A DNA stretch of 64,000 nucleotides, taken from contig BLLK01000022.1 in NCBI GenBank assembly GCA_021927905.1, positions 3,534,001 to 3,598,000 on the forward strand, written 5' to 3'. Below, piece after piece: positions 9,480 to 56,100 of this stretch. Source of the DNA: Chaetoceros tenuissimus. Lineage: Eukaryota > Bacillariophyta > Thalassiosirophyceae > Chaetocerotales > Chaetocerotaceae. Positions within the stretch are counted from its first letter, which is position 1, and each line of letters starts with the position of its first letter. A program made the position numbers and the translations under genes. Under the pieces are notes generated by a model. It did not search any database, was not told where the DNA came from, and saw only the letters and a program-made list of their open reading frames with translations.

Positions 9480-10100
9480 TTACAAGTGAAACTTTAGCCA
9501 AACCTTTGATAGACTGCTTTCCTCTTTTAGTGGAGCCAAAATACTAAGCATATCTTGAAATCCAGTTACTAATTGGAGAGATAAACTAACTTATAATAGA
9601 TTAGTTTCATTACACTTCCAATCAAAGCTTTTCAAAAGAGATACTGGTAACCTCGACTCGTCTCAAAATTTTACCCTCAAAGACATTGTCCAGTCTCGTG
9701 TCTCCAAATGTTTTGGCAGCTCCTCGAAAGAAATCTTTTTGAAGAGAATAAACAGAGGACGCAACTTCTTCCACTGCACGAGTCTTTGGAGAATTCTCTA
9801 CGCCTACTGATGCAGCTGGTCTATCCAATGAATATGTAGGTAAATCCACACATCGACTTAAAAATGCGTTTGACGATTCCGTTGGCAAAACAGTTCCAAA
9901 GACTGTATAAGCTGCGTTTAACTCTGGTGCAGCCCTAGTTGTGATTCCATATTCTGGCAATACATCGAAATCTCTATGAGTCAACAAACCTGGTCTATTG
10001 TGTACTAGCCTCTTTTTCTCCTTGAAATCGTCAACCCACAGTTTCGAAGATAAAATTCGTCCTCCATATTCCAATGCACTGCTACCGGCAAATGTTGTCA
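9480..10100 (-). pseudogene. Truncated duplicate of the lumenal cyclophilin gene (3' half only)
   Basis: This segment duplicates the 3' half of the gene at 17149-18177 on the same strand. From 9601 to 10100 it aligns without gaps to 17128-17627, with 10 substitutions (98% identity by direct comparison). The open frame (stop at about 9622) encodes 159 residues that differ from the full gene by one Phe/Leu change. Downstream flank homology continues with indels to about 9480. Upstream of TTGTCA (10095-10100) the similarity stops abruptly and the sequence switches to the motif also found at 11770-11815. The signal peptide, Tat signal and first half of the cyclophilin domain are missing. An internal Met could start a short peptide, but no promoter or targeting sequence came with it. 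Confidence 0.8.
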
Positions 10101-10382
10101 CATACGTCAGTCGCTACATATCCATCCGCGTTTAGACTGCAGAGTGAACATAAACTTGACTTGTGTCGTCCCTATGCTACACGCTCTGCAGGAAATGGAT
10201 CAAAGAAGAATGGAAAAGCTGCGGACAAGAAATAGAAATGATTCATTGCAAAGAAGAGCGATATCAATACAAAAGCTGCCTTATCATACATTCATCAGAA
10301 TAAAGACCAAGGCACATACATTCCTCAGATAAATTTTTAATTGAAATAGTTTTAGAAATTTTCAATTCCATGATCGACAGAA

Positions 10383-11399: not shown

Positions 11400-11745
11400 C
11401 TAATGGTGATTTGTTTTAACGCTCTAGTAAAGCGTAATGTATCTGTAAAATTATTGAGAGAAATCTATTCTAATCAAATTGTTCGTGATGAGATTGTGTT
11501 TTGAAAAATTTCTGCCTTTTTGTTCGGACGTACATACCTTTTTGTACTTCTTGAGGAGAACTACAGGTGTGTTGAAAGCGTACCAATTTGCACAAAGTGA
11601 GCAATGAAGAGGATGGGGTTTGGAGGAGCCCCTATGCTTTTCGGAATGTTGACGAACTGTCTAATCGTGACGACTAGATCTGAGGTGGCGTGTGGTGCGT
11701 GAATGAAAATATCCTTTTTTATGGGTAGTGGCAGAACTGTCTGTG

Positions 11746-11860
11746 CACGTGTGTAATGACGCACGAAGTTTGTCACATACGTCAGCCGCTACACATCCAT
11801 CCGCGTTTAGACTGCACACGTGTGTAATGACGCACGAAGTTTGTCCCATACGTCAGTCGT
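11746..11860. promoter_or_regulatory. Tandem 71-bp repeat carrying TGACGC and ACGTCA motifs
   Basis: The block CACGTGTGTAATGACGCACG occurs at 11746 and again at 11817, a period of 71 bases. Each copy contains CACGTG (G-box like), TGACGC (11757-11762 and 11828-11833) and ACGTCA (11779-11784 and 11850-11855). A partial third copy sits at 10101-10138. The array lies in the divergent promoter between the CRAL-TRIO gene (ATG at 11399) and the GMC-ABCG gene (ATG at 11974). TGACGT, ACGTCA and TGACGC are the CO2/cAMP-responsive motifs described for a diatom carbonic anhydrase promoter, so a bZIP-regulated pair is plausible but unproven. Confidence 0.55.
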
Positions 11861-11973
11861 CAGTCGCTTGCGTGTTGAGAATTTGGAACGAACATAGGAA
11901 TTGTGGCCAAAAGAATCTCATAGAAAAACTCAAAACATAAATAATTTCTAGTTAAAAACGGATCGAAAGTAGT

Positions 11974-14658
11974 ATGTCAAGGAACTATGATTACATCATC
12001 GTGGGAGCTGGCTCTTCAGGATGCGCTCTTGCATCGAGACTTGCAGCAAAGGGAAAGGTACTCCTAGTTGAGAAGGGGGCAAACCATACAGCGTATCCTC
12101 AAAGCAAAGTAAAAGCAGGGTGGCCCCAAATAGCAGGCCTTGTAGTCAATGCACTTCGAAACAAAGGATCAGGTCACTGGACTGGCACAGGAAATATACT
12201 TGGTGGGGGTAAGTTCGCATGATTCTAGATTTCAAATTTGATGCCAATTCATTAATAAAAATTATTTGTTCATTTAGGTAGTGCCCTGAATGCTGGAGTG
12301 TGTGTAAGAGGTCAGAAAGAGATATTCACTTCTCTCGGTATTGATCTATCATTAGCAGAAAAGGCATTTCAATTCCTTGAAAGCACCATCTGTCTTCCTG
12401 CTGACTATGAAGAATTCCATAAGATATACGAAGATGCTTGGAAAGAAAGAGGAGATTATTTTAGACTTCCAGGGTATACATATGGTAGTTGGGTAGAGGA
12501 GGCTTTGAGAGACAATAATGTTTCTTTATCGGAGGGAAGCGGTCATGGATATAAGAAGAGTATTCAGGTTGCCAGAACAATTATGCCTACAAAGGACAAC
12601 GATGAAAGGAGACCAGCAAGCTTTCTGTTCGAAAAATCTTTTGCTGAGAAGGAAGCAAGCATCATGGATCAAGGGAACTTAACTGTACTCCTTCTGACAC
12701 AAGCTAAAAAAGTTATTTTCAACGATAACAAGGAAGCAATTGGAGTTGATTTGATTACTCCAGCTGGTAATTTGACCGTATATGTGAGAAGAAAAGGAAA
12801 GGTATTTTTAAATGCTGGAGCTTATGAAACTCCTAAACTTTTGATGGTGAGTTTGGAAGTAATGCAGTTGAGGTTGCTTCACCAACGTTGTTCTTATTTG
12901 TATTTCATTGTCTATAGTTGAGCGGTATTGGACCAAGAGCTACTCTTGACAAGTATAATATTCCAGTAGTGTATGAAAATGAGCACGTCGGTCTAAATCT
13001 TCAAGATAGAAAAAGCAGCTACATGACACTAGCAGGATTGAAAGACATTTCAGGTGATGATACAGCCATAATAGACGTACTTGCAATATCTGAAAAGACT
13101 TGGACCTACATGCCGAACAAAAATGCACTTGGTAAGTTTTCTTAGTGGTATCATTGAATTCTTTTCACTTTACTGATACAAAAAAATTCTTCATGCATTT
13201 CAAAAGTATGGGGAAATGCTTTTGGAGGGTGCCAAACATGTGCTCCAATTTATCGTACCAAAGCATGTGCTACTCAAGTTTTAGCAGCTGCCATGTTCTA
13301 TGGGTCAGGTTATCAAGGCTCTGGACCTCACTATTTGCCAATGAATGTTGTAGGAAGATATCCAGAGACTCGTGGAAATATCACTCTGGCGAGTTCAAGT
13401 TATGAAGATAATGTCATTGTTCAAGATGGATGGAGCACAAATATGAATGATTTGAAAGGTCCAGCACTGAATGATTTCAAAGCTATTGTGGAAGGAGTGC
13501 AGGATCAAATAATTAGATTTCTGCGAGAGACGAGTATATTAGAAAAGCTTGGTACAGTGTCTTTGAATGCAAGTTTGAATGAAGAATTATCCGCAGAGCT
13601 TGAAGACTTCCTTACTACATCCCAAGATCAGAGACTGAAGGCATCTGAAGTATTTGACAAGTGCAAATTTAATGAAAATCCTTTAGGTGACTGTGTTGGT
13701 ATGGATACTTGTATACCAACTCATCCATCTCTGCCTGTTAATGATAGCGAAGTTCTACGTGAAATAGTGTTTAATAGCTTAGGTTCCACATGGCACATGT
13801 CAGGGACATGTAGGGTTGGCGACGTCGTGAAAAAGGGATCAATGGAAGTCATTGGAGTAAAGAATCTCCATGTTTCTGATTTGTCCATATTAGATGAAAT
13901 AGTAGATATGCATCCATTCATGACGGCTATGAGTATAGGCCTTTTAATAGGTGACAATACATCTCCAATCCAAAGTGGCAATTTCGAATATTTCCCAGTA
14001 ATTTTGTCGACTTTTTGTTGTATTACTATCTTGCTCTTCATGTGCATCCTTGTCGCCAAGCCAATTTGTGGAAGACTGAAAAAGGATAGGAAAATAACAG
14101 ATCTCAATTCTATCAGAAAATCACTGACTTGGTCTCTATGCGCTGTGTCTACGGGAAAAAATACTATCATGGAATGGACAAACGTTTCATGTTCTTATAA
14201 GAAGAAAGCCTCTACGAAAACAACACTATTTAACAACACAGGCAAAATTGTATCGGGTGAATTGACCGCGTTAATGGGACCGTCGTAAGTTCATTATCGA
14301 TATTTGGAGAAATTCTTTTTCACACCATCTTACTTTCGAATATTTTTACAGTGGCGCATCTAAAAGTACTTTACTTGATATTCTTGCAGGCCGCAAGTCC
14401 GAGGGGAAAATATCAGGAACATTCAATGTGCTGGGGCAACACATAGACGCATTTCAAGATGGTGTTTCAAAAATCACCAAAGCAATGAAGAATCATTGCG
14501 CATATATCCCACAGCAAGAATTCTTTTATCCAACTCAAACTTGTTTTGAGGCTGTGAACTTTGTTGCAAATATGCGCTTGGGGAAAAGCCAAAGAATGAG
14601 GATCAACGTAAGGCATTCATTTCACTTTGCCTCGATGATGTTGGTTTACCATCAATAG
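11974..14658 (+). CDS. GMC oxidoreductase domain, N-terminal half of a GMC-ABCG fusion
   Basis: Exons 11974-12208, 12278-12846, 12918-13131, 13207-14284 and 14352 onward, all with GT-AG borders that keep frame. The product begins with the FAD-binding YIIVGAGSSGCALASRL, contains the second GMC signature GAYETPKLLM-LSGIGP (interrupted by intron 2), and ends with the GMC C-terminal block: WHMSGTCRVG (His near residue 533) and MHPFMTAM (second catalytic-type His near 573). A transmembrane segment (about 602-623, FPVILSTFCCITILLFM) follows, then an ABC nucleotide-binding domain with P-loop GPSGASKST split by intron 4. A 1-base deletion in the G-run at 14580-14583 shifts the frame, giving a stop at 14658 and an 800-residue truncated product. 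GMC enzymes oxidise alcohols with FAD. The GMC part itself looks intact. Confidence 0.72.
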
Positions 14659-16829
14659 AGTTTGCACATAGAAAGATTGGTGGTGATCTTCCTGGTGGCA
14701 TTAGTATTTGAGGCCTATCTGGCGGGGAAAGAAAGAGGTACGCATGTATAAGTGTGCCATTATTCTTCAAAAGAAATTGTATTTAATTCTACTTACTTCT
14801 CCCATAGGTTGGTTCTTGCAACGGCCTTAGCATTGAAGCCACGTGTAATGTTCATAGATGAAATCACAAGGTAAGTTTTCCGATTATCACAAATGAAATA
14901 TTATATTTTACTGAAAGTGTATTCTCACCATTTCAAATTTCTATAACCTTTTAGTGGGGTAAGGATATCTTCTTGAAAACATGTTCGTATTTTTTTCATT
15001 CATACTGTTTTTTTCTAACAGCATGTGCAGCTTGATTCGGAGAATTCTCTCCTGATCATAGAGCTCCTAAAGAAATTGAGTAGGGAAAACAACGTGGCTA
15101 GTGTTGTGATTATCCATCAGCCAAGCGCAAAGGTTTTCAGAAAGTTTGATAACTTACTATTGCTTGCAAAAGGACTTCCAGTGTATGCAGGTCCTCTAGA
15201 AGAACTGTCCGAATTCTATGAACGCAATTATGACGAGGCTATGCCCCCAGATTATGATCTTGCTGATGATTTGATTCGAAAGGCTATCGCACATCAGACT
15301 CAAAGAAGTACGGATCATTGGGCAGGTCCGCTTCAAGCTAACTGTGTAAATTCAGAAAGCGAAGAGGAACTATGTCTTGATACTTCGATAATATCAGAGG
15401 AAAATGACAACCGAAGACCTGATGACGAAAGCGAATTTAGTTTTGAAAATTTTCCAATGGAAAAGGAAACCGAAATCCCAAGAGCTTCAGATGAAAGCAT
15501 AATGTCTTTTGAGGATAGTTCAAGAGCCAAATATTTCCCGGAATCGAGTAACTTGACCACAGGAACTAATATGGCTACGGCAGAAGACGAAATTCGATTG
15601 AAATCTAATAGCAGTGCAGTAATCGACTTGGATACTGGAGGAAGGATGTTTACGAAAGAAAATGAATCAAAGGAAACGAAAGATTTGGACTTTTCTAGCG
15701 AACAAAATGCAAGAGTCATCGACCTAGGTATACCAAAAGATGAATGGGAAAACAAGCCAACTGGACCTCTTCATAGTAATGGGGAGGGGACCGAACGCAC
15801 AGATCTAGAGAGTTATGCTCAACCTCCAACTTATTGGAAACTCGCCACAGTCTTTAAAAGAAATCTCAAGAATCAGTATATAAGCAATATTGCTAATGTG
15901 GTGGGAAGACTTGCAAGCTATAGTATTTTATCTATTCTAATTGGTTGGATTTTCTTTCAGGTTGGGGAAGGTGCTAATAGTGCCTCGGATGGATTGACTT
16001 TCACAGAAGCAGATTTATTGATTAGAACGAACATTTTTGTGCTAAATGTCAGCTACCTTTTGCCATTTTCATCAATACCAGTTTTTGTCGGCGACAAAAG
16101 ATTTTTTGTAGCAGAGAGTGCACTTGGGCTTTATAGTCCGTGGATGTATGGTCTCAGTCAAGGTCATCCTTGAGACTCTATTTGTCACTTTGGCAGCAAT
16201 TATCCAAACCTGCATTATTATTCCAATGTGCTCCCTCGTGAATCCTACATTTTCGGCGCCAATTAGCTTCATGACTATACTTGCAGCTCTCATAATGTCT
16301 GGATTAGTGGGTAAGTGTCAAGGAAAAAAAGTATTACCTTCTCGTTTTAGCTGCACGGGTCTTCTTAACAGCACTTTTACGTGTTTTTCAAAAAGGATCT
16401 ACACTGGTATTTTTATGTTCGATGGTTTTGCCTTCCCAAGACATGGCATTCATAGCCGGAAGTACGATTGTCACGATAGGTTTGGCATTGTCCGGTGGTT
16501 TCCTTCCATTCAGGTGAGCAAATCTCATTGCTATGTGCATACTTTATCTGTTATTTCCGTCCTAAAAAATGCTTCATCGTTTTCATCATCTTTTTAGTGA
16601 GATGAGCTCTTTTCCTTATGCATTGCAGTGGCTAAGTCCAGTGAAGTATTCAATGCAAGCCTTGCTTACATGCCAACTAGGAGGTACTAGCTCAGAGAGA
16701 ATTATTGATATCGGTAAATTCAATACTCCTTCAACAGTGTCCAGTAATTTGGGTGTTTTGGTGGGCATATTTCTACTTCTTGCCCTGCTGTCAGGAATAG
16801 CAATAACTCGACTGAAAGAAACTCGTTGA
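14352..16829 (+). pseudogene. ABCG-type half-transporter, C-terminal part of the fusion, with three lesions
   Basis: Exons 14352-14737, 14808-14870, 14955-14958, 15031-16310, 16351-16513 and 16598-16829. After the frameshift at 14580-14583 the next frame continues the ABCG nucleotide-binding domain: KNEDQRKAFISL, then GGISI, an in-frame TGA (14709-14711) where the family has Arg, then the ABC signature LSGGERKR. Walker B VMFIDEIT, the D-loop SGLDS (through a 4-nt exon), and H-loop IIHQPS follow. A long acidic linker (about 15340-15790) precedes the ABC2 membrane domain. A 1-base insertion near 16163 shifts the frame again before VILETLFVTLAA. The two frameshifts compensate, and total spliced length is 4224 nt, a multiple of three. 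Either a young pseudogene or assembly errors; the TGA favours the former. Confidence 0.7.
14955..14958 (+). other. 4-nt microexon (TGGG) inside the ABCG D-loop
   Basis: Between exon end ACAAG (14870) and exon start CTTGATTCG (15031) lie two back-to-back GT-AG introns: 14871-14954 (gtaagt...ttttag) and 14959-15030 (gtaagg...tgtgcag). Only TGGG lies between them. Including it gives ITSGLDS, the conserved ABCG D-loop, in frame; omitting it breaks the frame. Confidence 0.65.
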
Positions 16830-51884: not shown

Positions 51885-52770
51885 TACGCAACCTCAGCGT
51901 ATAAAGGATAACATTAGAATAAATCCCCGAAGCACGGATCCGAGAGGATCTGCGATTTAGTGTAGAGAAACAGATCTACACTAGATTTCATTCCAGCAGC
52001 CGCTCTAGCGAGCGGAAGCTAGGATGAAGGACGGCGATGACGTCAAAAGCATGCTACTGACGCCTACAATCTGAGAGCGTACAGTAGCCCTACTTTGTAG
52101 TATGTTTAGTTACAGATAGATAGGAGGCAAACAAGAACCTATCACCAACATAAACCCATTACAAGGGTAGAGCACCTGAATCCCGAGATTAACGGCAGAC
52201 ATATCCATTCAACCACCTCCTATATTGAATTGGACATTGAAAAGACGGAAATAATCAAAAACTGTAGAAGTCACCTAGTAAATCCAAGGGAAACAGAAGT
52301 GTTTAGCCGACAAAACAGGCGAGTGTTGTACGTACAAGAAACGGTACGTCAGGACACGGGTTAGAGGGACTCACCAAATCCTCAACGCATGATATGTATA
52401 AAAGGTCATGAAAGCCAAAAGCAAGACTAGAATCATTAGAACATGACACCTAGTCCACACCGGAAATTCGCCGAAGTGTACGACGTTTAGAAAGGCAGAA
52501 AACTACACGTCACGGACAGCTCACCCAACAGAAACTGAACGAGAACCTATATCTGGAGGTGGGTGCCCAAGGTAAGGAAAATAACTCCGAACCGAGGCAC
52601 TGCCCAAGGGAAGATAGGCTTCAACGCCAAGTGCCACGCCTTGACACCAGAGACGAGAAGCCATCTGCTCGAGGCAACACCAAAAGATATAGAAGAACTG
52701 GATAGAGATTAAATGCCTAAGATCGACCAGAAAATAATAAAAACAATAAAAACCAAAAAGAAATATAAAA

Positions 52771-55338
52771 ATGTCACAAATGGAATTACGTTCAGCAGCG
52801 AAGAAAAAGGAGGAAATGGAAAGGGATGAGCTGGAAGGTCCCTACTATTACAGTGAGAAGCCTACTCAGGTAATACAAGGAGGAGTGCATACCGTAATAA
52901 AGCAACTATGGAATGCAGTGAAAAATGTAGATGGCATGGAAAAATCGGAATGGACTGAATGGGCGGCAAAAGGACTCATAGCAAATCTTACAAAGTTTAG
53001 AGAGTTTACAGATCTCCGTCTGTCAAACGATGAAAAGATCCAACACCTCATCAACTCAATCACAGAGAATACCGACTATAGAGTAGAAGAGGATGACAGT
53101 GGACCAACTAGACAGATTAGACTATGGATACCAATCCCAAAGGAACCACAACCAACTAACCCCAGCCATCTATCGGAACAAGATGAAGAGGAAGACGAAA
53201 AAGATGAAGAGGAAGAAGAACAAAGACCAAACGAACCAACTTTGGCACAACCATCAATGGAACAAGATGATGAGGAAAGTAGTCAAGGGAGCAAACACAG
53301 TGAAGAAATAGAGATAGAAAGCGATGATGACATCAACAAGAGCATAGTCACTGCAGTAGATACCATGACAGAGAAACTGGAACAGCTGACGACAGAAATA
53401 GGAATCATCAACGCAACGGATCCAAGCTCACAAGACACGCAAAGGAGAAACGACATGATCGAATCACTCACAGCAGTCACACATAGTATGGCTCAAATCC
53501 TCGAAGCCATCAAGCATCTGGATAAGGCAACAAGAGCAAACATTAGAAGAATAGAAACAAAATCTATTGCCAACATGAACAAATCCAAGAAACAGATGAA
53601 GGAGGATATGAAAAAGGAATTGAAGAAAGACATGGGAAAAGAAATGGAAAAGATGATGGAGAAAATGATTGAAAAAGAAAGAAAGGATTTCAACTCGTAC
53701 ATCCAAAGTCAAGAACAGTTAGCCATTAATAGACTCAACCAGCAAGTGAAGGATGAGACAGAAGCAAAACTGAAAGCACAACAGTACAAACTGGATGAAC
53801 ATAAGGAGCTGCTAATCCTAGATATGGAGCAAGAGAGAAATGACATGGGAGAGAAATGGAAGAAATATATTGAGCAAGAAAAACAGAAAATCAACACACC
53901 TCAATATCCACTCCCGTACCATCCACCAGGAGCGCCTACAATCAGTACACCATTTAATACCAATGTCCCAGTATCCCAAGCAATCAAGCACACCAATACA
54001 CCTCGTAGCCCAGGAAGACAGGCTAAACTTACTGACTACGATAAACCGGACACATACGTCTACGAAGGAAGCAAGTTTACTGTAAGACCGCAACTTCTAA
54101 TCGATAGCGTCAATAACATCCCAACACTCAAAGATAAGGATGACATCATATACGTATACACAGCGATCCATACCGTAGCAAGGACAAGCGGAGTACTTCT
54201 GACCACACCTGCTACAATCCAGATATACACAATGCACCACCCATACCCAACAACATTTGGAATCAGAAGTGATGCTGAATCGAACCCAAACGTAGACTTC
54301 CAAGCATCAGTTTCCCTAAACCAACTGTACAAACTCATGGATAGAGCACTATACAATCTTCTCACCGAGGTCATATCAGAGGATTACTACGAAGCCAAAC
54401 AGATCATGGACAATGCAGCCAGAGATGGAGAAGGTTACAAAGCTCTGTACATGCTCCTAAAACTGTGCCTACCACGACTAAACCCAATGGTAGCTCCAAC
54501 AGTACCCCCACTCTGGACGCAAGGAACAGAGCTGACGAAGTTTGTAGCAAAAGTAAGATCATACAAGGACTTTGATAGCAATTTCGATGATGAGACAGCA
54601 ATCAGACACATACTCCAACATGTACCAGAGGATGAATACCCAGGAGTGGCAACAGTAAGAGGCAAGTACCAAGCATACGTGGACGCCAAAGAGACATATA
54701 ACATCCAGTATAGCAATATTCCAAATCCACCCTTACCACCACCACTACCAGGAGATGTCTCACTTGCATACATAGCATACAATATCAATAAGAACCCTGT
54801 GAATGCAACAACAAGACGTATGATTGCGGAGGAAATTAACAAACATCCAATTAATGCAATCACGAGACGTGCAATAACAGAAGAGATTCAGAAAGTACAG
54901 GCAACAATGGAAGTAGAAGAACCAACGGTAATGCTGACAAGAAGAACAGGAACGAAAGAACTATGTAAAGCATGCGGTACATATGGACACCAGGTTAACA
55001 TCGACGGATGCGATCAACTGGCTATGGTACAGAACTGTCTAAAATTCCGTCAACTGTGCAAGAAGAACAATGAAGAAAGTACTATCAAAAATATCCACGA
55101 GAAATACAAAAACTTCAATGAAGATAAAAAGAAGAAATCTCAAGAGATGTCAACAAGAAGAAACACCGAAAGAGGAAATGGAAAGAACGATAGAAACACT
55201 GAGAGACGATCAAGATCTAGGGATAGAACCAGAATCACAAGACTAACATCAGCAAACGAAGACTCAGATAGTCTATACACAGATCTCTCAGATGATGAAT
55301 ACTCCTTCGATACTTCAGATTCATATGACAGATATTGA
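52771..55338 (+). CDS. Gag-like polyprotein of the retroelement
   Basis: 855 residues, start in AAAATGTCACAAATGG. The N-terminal third is acidic (Glu/Asp-rich, about 130-200), residues about 265-385 are a Lys/Glu coiled coil (KKQMKEDMKKELKKDMGKEM), and the central part (about 420-690) is helical as in a capsid region. One zinc knuckle, CKACGTYGHQVNIDGC (CX2CX4HX6C, about 731-746), is of the diatom copia Gag type. The C-terminus is Arg/Ser/Asp-rich and may bind RNA. It is the only long frame in the element. No protease motif (DTG/DSG) is seen. Confidence 0.8.
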   Translation: MSQMELRSAAKKKEEMERDELEGPYYYSEKPTQVIQGGVHTVIKQLWNAVKNVDGMEKSEWTEWAAKGLIANLTKFREFTDLRLSNDEKIQHLINSITENTDYRVEEDDSGPTRQIRLWIPIPKEPQPTNPSHLSEQDEEEDEKDEEEEEQRPNEPTLAQPSMEQDDEESSQGSKHSEEIEIESDDDINKSIVTAVDTMTEKLEQLTTEIGIINATDPSSQDTQRRNDMIESLTAVTHSMAQILEAIKHLDKATRANIRRIETKSIANMNKSKKQMKEDMKKELKKDMGKEMEKMMEKMIEKERKDFNSYIQSQEQLAINRLNQQVKDETEAKLKAQQYKLDEHKELLILDMEQERNDMGEKWKKYIEQEKQKINTPQYPLPYHPPGAPTISTPFNTNVPVSQAIKHTNTPRSPGRQAKLTDYDKPDTYVYEGSKFTVRPQLLIDSVNNIPTLKDKDDIIYVYTAIHTVARTSGVLLTTPATIQIYTMHHPYPTTFGIRSDAESNPNVDFQASVSLNQLYKLMDRALYNLLTEVISEDYYEAKQIMDNAARDGEGYKALYMLLKLCLPRLNPMVAPTVPPLWTQGTELTKFVAKVRSYKDFDSNFDDETAIRHILQHVPEDEYPGVATVRGKYQAYVDAKETYNIQYSNIPNPPLPPPLPGDVSLAYIAYNINKNPVNATTRRMIAEEINKHPINAITRRAITEEIQKVQATMEVEEPTVMLTRRTGTKELCKACGTYGHQVNIDGCDQLAMVQNCLKFRQLCKKNNEESTIKNIHEKYKNFNEDKKKKSQEMSTRRNTERGNGKNDRNTERRSRSRDRTRITRLTSANEDSDSLYTDLSDDEYSFDTSDSYDRY

Positions 55339-55669: not shown

Positions 55670-56100
55670 AACATCTGAGCAGCAGAGGATAACAAAGTGA
55701 AAGCGTATCGAACCATCTTAACAAAAGCATCTGAGCAGCAGAGGATAACCAAATAGAAGCGTATCGGAAACTGCAGCAACATAACCTGAGCAGCAGAGGA
55801 CAACCAAATGGAAGCATATCAAACCATTGTAATGTGCAAGTGTAATCAGACAATTGTAGCAACACCATCTGAGCAGCAGAGGATAACCAATAGGAAGCGT
55901 ATCAGACTACTGTAACAACATTGAGTGTCAAATGTACAGAGGATAACCAATAGGAAGCGTATCGGACTATTGTAAGAAAAACAAATATGTCAAATGCACA
56001 GAGGATAACCAACAGAAAACATACCGGACTATCGTAACAAATTCAAAGGTCAAGTGCAGAAAGGATAACCAAAAGGAAGCGTATCGAGCCATAGCAACAA
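55670..56100 (+). repeat. Seven-unit degenerate tandem array in the retroelement
   Basis: Core GAGGATAACCAATAGGAAGC recurs at 55685, 55741, 55796, 55879, 55939, 56001 and 56061, spaced 55-83 bases. Most units continue GTATCGGACTATTGTAACAA. The first four are preceded by CTGAGCAGCA. The array lies between gag and the 3' LTR. Confidence 0.85.

Follow-up and report, generated by a model that had tools for sequence, protein, structure and literature searches.

Background

HOTHEAD, a plant enzyme that we take to be a GMC family oxidoreductase and presumably a member of its hydroxynitrile lyase/mandelonitrile lyase branch, offers the first point of comparison for the gene described here. In the plant cuticle HOTHEAD is needed for the oxidation of omega-hydroxy fatty acids and the transporter ABCG32 has been suggested to export cutin precursors (PMC8267416), with a GMC enzyme and an ABCG protein serving one lipid layer. 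The two plant proteins are encoded by separate genes, whereas in the diatom Chaetoceros tenuissimus a GMC flavoenzyme and an ABCG half-transporter are fused in one chain; the parallel is an analogy and no evidence of the same substrate. The fusion gene occupies positions 11974–16829 on the plus strand of a stretch of 64,000 nucleotides (assembly GCA_021927905.1, contig BLLK01000022.1, positions 3,534,001 to 3,598,000), hereafter "the window", which has a G+C content of about 39%.

Each half also has known counterparts outside the fusion. ABCG half-transporters of the White/ABCG1/ABCG2 type share with the fusion the order of an ATPase domain before a membrane domain and six C-terminal hydrophobic segments. 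The fusion differs from them by a whole GMC enzyme and an extra helix in front, by a serine in the Walker A motif, and by a variable acidic linker between the ATPase and membrane domains. The hydroxynitrile and mandelonitrile lyases share with the enzyme half the aligned histidines of the WHxxG[T/G]C and [T/S]HP motifs and an NAGV sequence after the GGxS motif; the fusion differs from hydroxynitrile lyase in having no signal peptide and in extending into a membrane helix and an ABC transporter.

We found no description of a GMC–ABC fusion among the listed entries of the open-access literature searched, as judged by titles or the beginnings of abstracts. Five search terms had no occurrence in an article on oomycete domain fusions (PMC2705460), and an article on diatom transporters (PMC3237598), in the passages used, lists clusters of the ABC transporter G family and does not contain the word "fusion". 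Scans of viral and prokaryotic contigs, in which 1 stretch (viral sequence) and 106 stretches, respectively, matched the pattern, yielded no relative and are little informative.

Our overall reading, to which we assign a probability of roughly 60%, is that the window carries one of two copies found in the genome of a true fusion of a GMC oxidoreductase, a single membrane anchor and an ABCG half-transporter, that the enzyme would lie on the lumenal or extracellular side and oxidise exiting cargo, and that the window copy was broken either recently or at the level of the assembly.

Evidence for a single fused gene

The fusion is supported by a second locus. Protein searches of the genome (41,027,912 bases in 68 contigs) revealed one further locus matching both halves, located on a different contig (G000:C13, L013 1867–6453; hereafter the C13 copy). 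This copy splices into 1,296 amino acids (3,891 coding nucleotides) without an internal stop, has the identical domain order, ten exons and intron positions, and in a single chain matches the Pfam models GMC_oxred_N, GMC_oxred_C, ABC_tran and ABC2_membrane, all above cut-off. Matches between the exons of the two copies are 79–89% identical, falling to 71% in the stretch with the variable linker and to 66% in one match of 35 residues. Because the genome has, at another place, an intact copy that shares this exon structure, chance and chimeric assembly are excluded as explanations of the architecture, which is the same on both contigs. A preliminary description of the window had proposed one gene joining a GMC enzyme to an ABCG exporter and had looked to an intact homologue with both domain sets for support; the C13 copy is such a homologue, and we conclude from its sequence and from the junction described below that the GMC–ABCG fusion is real and is one gene.

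The junction itself lies within exon 4 (13207–14284; 1078 nucleotides, within the open reading frame 13158–14288), which is free of stops from the C-terminus of the GMC part, via the hydrophobic helix, to the P-loop. This bears directly on the possibility that two adjacent genes, for a GMC enzyme and then for an ABCG transporter, were wrongly joined. Each domain family is also found elsewhere in the genome without the other nearby, as that possibility would have it: the other two GMC loci that were found, C16:2174258 and C21:623577, have no ABC match within 50 kb. The search with PF00732 missed the C13 locus, so that such counts of domain matches are lower bounds. On the other side, one exon crosses the junction with no stop or gap in either copy, the same arrangement occurs at two loci on different contigs, and the junction evolves in the manner of coding sequence. 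These observations rule the wrong joining of two genes out as a working explanation, and the chance that it is nevertheless correct is in our estimate close to negligible.

The evolution of the junction was assessed from the ratio of nonsynonymous to synonymous substitution rates (dN/dS) between the window copy and the C13 copy by the Nei–Gojobori method, excluding an in-frame TGA codon, the codons beside two frame changes (see below), and unpartnered codons, most of which belong to the acidic linker that is longer in exon 8 of the window copy. The ratio is 0.21 in the GMC part (bootstrap upper limit 0.29), 0.25 in the helix and the linker following it (90 codons with no gap; upper limit 0.50), 0.10 in the ATPase domain (upper limit 0.17) and 0.13 in the membrane domain (upper limit 0.20), compared with 0.39 in the variable acidic linker between the ATPase and membrane domains (72 aligned codons). 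Third positions account for 38 of the 79 differences in the helix and linker (p = 0.005). Judged by these values, the junction shows the evolutionary pattern of coding DNA. Away from their ends, the introns are 67% identical between the copies (397 of 589 aligned bases; gaps occupy 33 columns).

Divergence between the copies is uneven. The GMC part has fewer third-position differences (119 in 589 codons) than the ABC part (167 in 594 codons; p = 0.0018), and the helix and linker rank among the most diverged stretches. There is no clear tract of gene conversion, the longest identical run of 56 nucleotides being below the 95% level of 59 nucleotides in shuffled comparisons.

The window copy starts with the ATG at 11974, ends with the final stop codon at 16827–16829 and is divided into ten exons, which encode in order the GMC flavoenzyme, one hydrophobic helix and the ABCG half-transporter. 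Its nine introns are 67–85 nucleotides long and all GT-AG. Both the number of canonical introns, with two of them flanking an exon of 4 nucleotides, and the one hydrophobic helix that separates the GMC part from the ABC part agree with the preliminary description, which gave the spliced length as 4224 nucleotides; our splicing yields 4179. Exon 1 (11974–12208), which has a canonical donor, carries the start codon and the GxGxxG motif (GAGSSG) that binds flavin adenine dinucleotide (FAD), and similarity to the C13 copy starts at the ATG (blastn match from 11971). The splice model together with Pfam assigns the GMC N-terminal domain (GGGSALNAG...) to exon 2 (12278–12846) and the GMC signature region (SGIGP) to exon 3 (12918–13131). 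Exon 4, supported in addition by the hydropathy scan, contains the GMC C-terminal domain (WHMSGTC, HPFMT), then the hydrophobic helix with its linker, and the first part of the ABC ATPase domain. Exon 5 (14352–14737; splice model and blastn against the C13 copy) contains the remainder of Walker A (GASKST), the Q-loop region and the LSGGE signature, and exon 6 (14808–14870; splice model) the Walker B motif (VMFIDEIT). The H-loop, the variable acidic linker and the start of the membrane domain are in exon 8 (15031–16310), the membrane domain continues in exon 9 (16396–16513), and exon 10 (16598–16829) holds its end and the stop codon, all three by the splice model and Pfam. Exon 8 measures 1280 nucleotides in the window copy versus 991 in the C13 copy, with the longer acidic linker at 15330–15800 of the window.

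Exon 7 (14955–14958; splice model and alignment) is the exon of 4 nucleotides, TGGG in the window copy and CGGG in the C13 copy, which is flanked by two introns and is needed to complete the conserved TSGLDS sequence after Walker B. Alignments of several other ABCG genes compared are also interrupted near TSGLDS, as by an intron, and the short exon appears to be located in a region of recurrent introns.

The enzyme and exporter halves

The GMC_oxred_N and GMC_oxred_C models (Pfam cut-offs 23 and 24.6 bits) score 67.4 and 41.7 bits in the window copy and 56.1 and 36.5 bits in the C13 copy. The FAD-binding motif is located at amino acids 11–16 (GAGSSG/GGGSSG). With the GMC part of the C13 copy as a query (598 amino acids), the best matches among solved structures are plant (R)-hydroxynitrile lyases (3red, E 6.1e-36), with choline oxidase ranking lower, and the GMC part would accordingly be placed nearest the hydroxynitrile lyases by the solved-structure matches only. 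The GMC active site has two key positions, a histidine and a histidine or asparagine. Residues H537 and H576 of the C13 copy align with histidines of hydroxynitrile lyase, are both kept in the window copy, and are presumably the active-site pair.

In the C13 copy the ATPase domain precedes a membrane domain of the ABC-2 type with six segments, and contains the signature GLSGGERKR, the Walker B motif VMFIDE and the H-loop VVIIHQ. The window copy has the same domains distributed over three frame pieces, and the four Pfam models named above all exceed their cut-offs when these pieces are scanned: GMC_oxred_N, GMC_oxred_C and ABC_tran in the first, ABC_tran, ABC2_membrane_7 and ABC2_membrane in the second, and ABC2_membrane in the third. 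Among NCBIfam models TIGR00955 ("pigment precursor permease") ranks first, with E 8.3e-77 and 259 bits, which is under its curated cut-off of 736. The best solved matches of the ABC part are fungal CDR1 and other pleiotropic drug efflux pumps, plant ABCG16, and human ABCG2 and ABCG1. Judging from its domain order, motifs and matches, the ABC part is a White-type ABCG half-transporter.

The Walker A motif departs from the pattern GxxGxGK[ST] in both copies, reading GPSGASKST in the window copy (14353–14370) and GPSGSSKST in the C13 copy (L013 4260–4277), with serine replacing the third glycine. That glycine is present in all 6 of the other ABCG loci compared (L003, L004 and L014–L017), which were drawn from 24 matches to PF01061 in the genome, some of them being exons of one gene. 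Several accepted ABCG proteins have degenerate ATP sites, and the serine therefore lowers the likelihood of an active ATPase rather than that of membership in the ABCG family.

Membrane topology

A hydropathy scan of the C13 copy shows seven hydrophobic segments, one (residues 606–624) separating the enzyme from the ATPase domain and another six within the membrane domain. The corresponding helix of the window copy covers amino acids 604–622 (13998–14054, converted via the exon table). In both copies the 15 residues that precede the helix, toward the enzyme, contain no lysine or arginine, and the 15 that follow it, toward the ATPase, contain six. By the positive-inside rule, this bias would place the ATPase side in the cytosol, where it has to be, and the GMC domain outside the cell or in a lumen, and it suggests that the GMC domain and the ATPase are on opposite sides of the membrane. 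The topology had been singled out as puzzling in the preliminary description, and with the 0 versus 6 charges, no signal peptide and, by blastn, no shared upstream exon, the puzzle is real.

Several observations weigh against our overall reading. The protein begins MSRNYDYIIVG with no evident signal peptide, as judged by eye, and it is unusual for an N-terminal domain of about 600 residues to cross the membrane without one. N-glycosylation motifs are not enriched in the GMC part, with 7 per copy compared to means of 5.0 and 4.3 in shuffled sequences (p = 0.21 and 0.12), and lumenal placement on the basis of these motifs was rejected as not significant. The Walker A serine, present in both copies, would make ATPase activity uncertain. 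In addition, the GMC C-terminal segment with both histidines aligns only weakly to hydroxynitrile lyase when taken alone (15.4 bits, i-Evalue 0.038), despite which GMC_oxred_C is above its Pfam cut-off. A comparison by blastn of 1.2 kb upstream of the ATG in the window with 1.9 kb in L013 found no shared sequence that could be a candidate signal-peptide exon, although a very short or fast-evolving exon could escape such a comparison.

A rival reading has the opposite order of events, in which a cytosolic GMC enzyme, attached by a re-entrant or hairpin anchor, acts first and hands its oxidised product to the exporter, the kind of coupling that the preliminary description had in mind. The absence of a signal peptide fits this arrangement, as does the start of the similarity between the copies at the ATG, with the Rossmann motif following within a few residues (MSRNYDYIIVGxGSSG). 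A central proline is frequent in hairpin anchors, and the helix of the C13 copy contains one (LLIPFILII), but the helix of the window copy does not, and the strong positive-inside bias is what a helix that simply spans the membrane, with its ATPase side cytosolic, would show. We regard a cytosolic enzyme as a tentative alternative, one that deserves serious weight and that would nonetheless fail more often than hold.

A third possibility is that the GMC domain is a surface-anchored oxidase serving as an extracellular source of hydrogen peroxide, with the ABC part reduced to a regulatory or vestigial anchor. The predicted outward position of the GMC domain and the Walker A serine in both copies are compatible with such a role. 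Constraint is strongest in the ATPase and membrane domains (dN/dS 0.10–0.13), unlike what is expected of a vestigial role, and we consider a peroxide source quite improbable.

Breaks in the window copy

Alignment to the C13 copy locates three breaks in the window copy, all on the plus strand. The first, at 14584–14587, is a run AAAA where the C13 copy has AA, changing the frame by +2. The second is a TGA codon in the conserved frame at 14709–14711, immediately 5' of GLSGGE, which corresponds to CGA (arginine) in the C13 copy. The third, at 16162–16163, is GG where the C13 copy has G (+1). As assembled, translation from the ATG stops at the TAG codon at 14656–14658 after 800 codons, giving a product composed of the GMC enzyme, the helix, the ATPase domain up to the Q-loop region, and an out-of-frame tail. 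The window copy as assembled encodes no complete exporter. The preliminary description had assumed one set of in-frame exons in which a −1 and a +1 frameshift cancel. It missed the TGA codon, and the frame changes prove to be an extra AA and an extra G, which sum to three and do not cancel functionally because the intervening coding sequence, about 1.3 kb, is translated in the wrong frame; the copy is left with two uncompensated frame changes.

The constraint on the exporter domains (dN/dS 0.10–0.13) is at least as strong as that on the enzyme, and the breaks are therefore unlikely to be old. This suggests that they are recent, or that they are artefacts of the assembly or of the allele assembled; the window copy could be a young pseudogene, a truncated allele that encodes at most the GMC enzyme, the helix and part of the ATPase domain, or a misassembled gene. 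All three breaks fall in the exporter half, and three events are too few to draw inferences from their position. The idea that the TGA specifies selenocysteine or otherwise serves as a sense codon was ruled out, given that the C13 copy has an arginine codon there and that two frame changes persist. Other intron choices by which the breaks would be spliced out, assessed only by eye, were dropped as they would delete conserved sequence before LSGGE.

Length errors in short single-base runs are typical of nanopore sequencing, and such runs are where two of the three breaks, both changes of length, occur. If all three were assembly errors, the window copy would be an intact, working gene, in line with the constraint on its exporter domains being at least equal to that on the enzyme. 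The change from CGA to TGA is not a run-length error, and the C13 copy, taken from the same assembly, has no such break in 3,891 coding nucleotides; we regard this explanation as unlikely, although not strongly so. The breaks may instead mark a genuine recent pseudogene or null allele, leaving the C13 copy as the only working one. The exporter half is disrupted three times, once by a nonsense change from C to T, which points in this direction. The assembly of C. tenuissimus NIES-3715 combines nanopore and Illumina data, and the heterozygosity of 1.56% estimated for the species (PMC8613185) means that a broken allele may have been assembled. The low dN/dS throughout the gene speaks against a pseudogene, as do the two length changes in short single-base runs given the nanopore component of the assembly. 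With evidence on both sides, a genuine pseudogene or null allele stands in our judgement at a little under even odds.

Other features of the window

Upstream of the fusion gene, an element in the promoter region, CACGTGTGTAATGACGCACGAAGTTTGTC.CATACGTCAG, which includes CACGTG and ACGTCA, is present in two direct copies 71 nucleotides apart (11745–11866), about 120–230 nucleotides 5' of the fusion ATG. The core of this element has no counterpart upstream of the C13 copy in L013, and a related match of 47 nucleotides (96%) occurs at 10095–10141 of the window. Farther downstream, an open reading frame of 862 amino acids (52750–55338) has lysine/glutamate-rich and cysteine/histidine-rich stretches that by eye resemble a retrotransposon Gag protein, and its region shows a strong skew of A over T. 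Two neighbouring imperfect tandem arrays with periods of 55 and 60 and similar consensus units are located at 55672–56086.

Possible function

If the GMC domain and the ATPase are indeed on opposite sides of the membrane, the enzyme would act on exported cargo rather than make the cargo for export. An ABCG half-transporter must dimerise, and the working unit would then have a pair of GMC domains placed at the exit of a single exporter, on the lumenal or extracellular side indicated by the charge pattern of the anchor, where a lipophilic alcohol of the fatty alcohol, hydroxy-acid or sterol type may be oxidised on leaving the pump. The preliminary description put forward the coupling of an enzyme to an exporter of its product, which stays a matter of inference. 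One can speculate further that the fusion represents a new class of export-and-oxidise ABCG transporters, perhaps restricted to diatoms, in which each half-transporter would, with no signal peptide, bring a flavoenzyme to the opposite side of the membrane, where departing cargo would be altered chemically, and the P-loop serine would tune or redirect the use of ATP, a proposal that we regard as distinctly doubtful.

The fusion brings two ordinary families together in an unusual single chain. A large enzyme domain predicted across the membrane without a signal peptide would constitute a directly testable problem of membrane topology. Domain fusions often show which proteins cooperate. ABCG half-transporters are hard to pair with their substrates, and the fused oxidoreductase would narrow the likely cargo to compounds that can be treated by GMC enzymes, while the fused GMC domain may provide a flavin-bearing handle for tests of that cargo.

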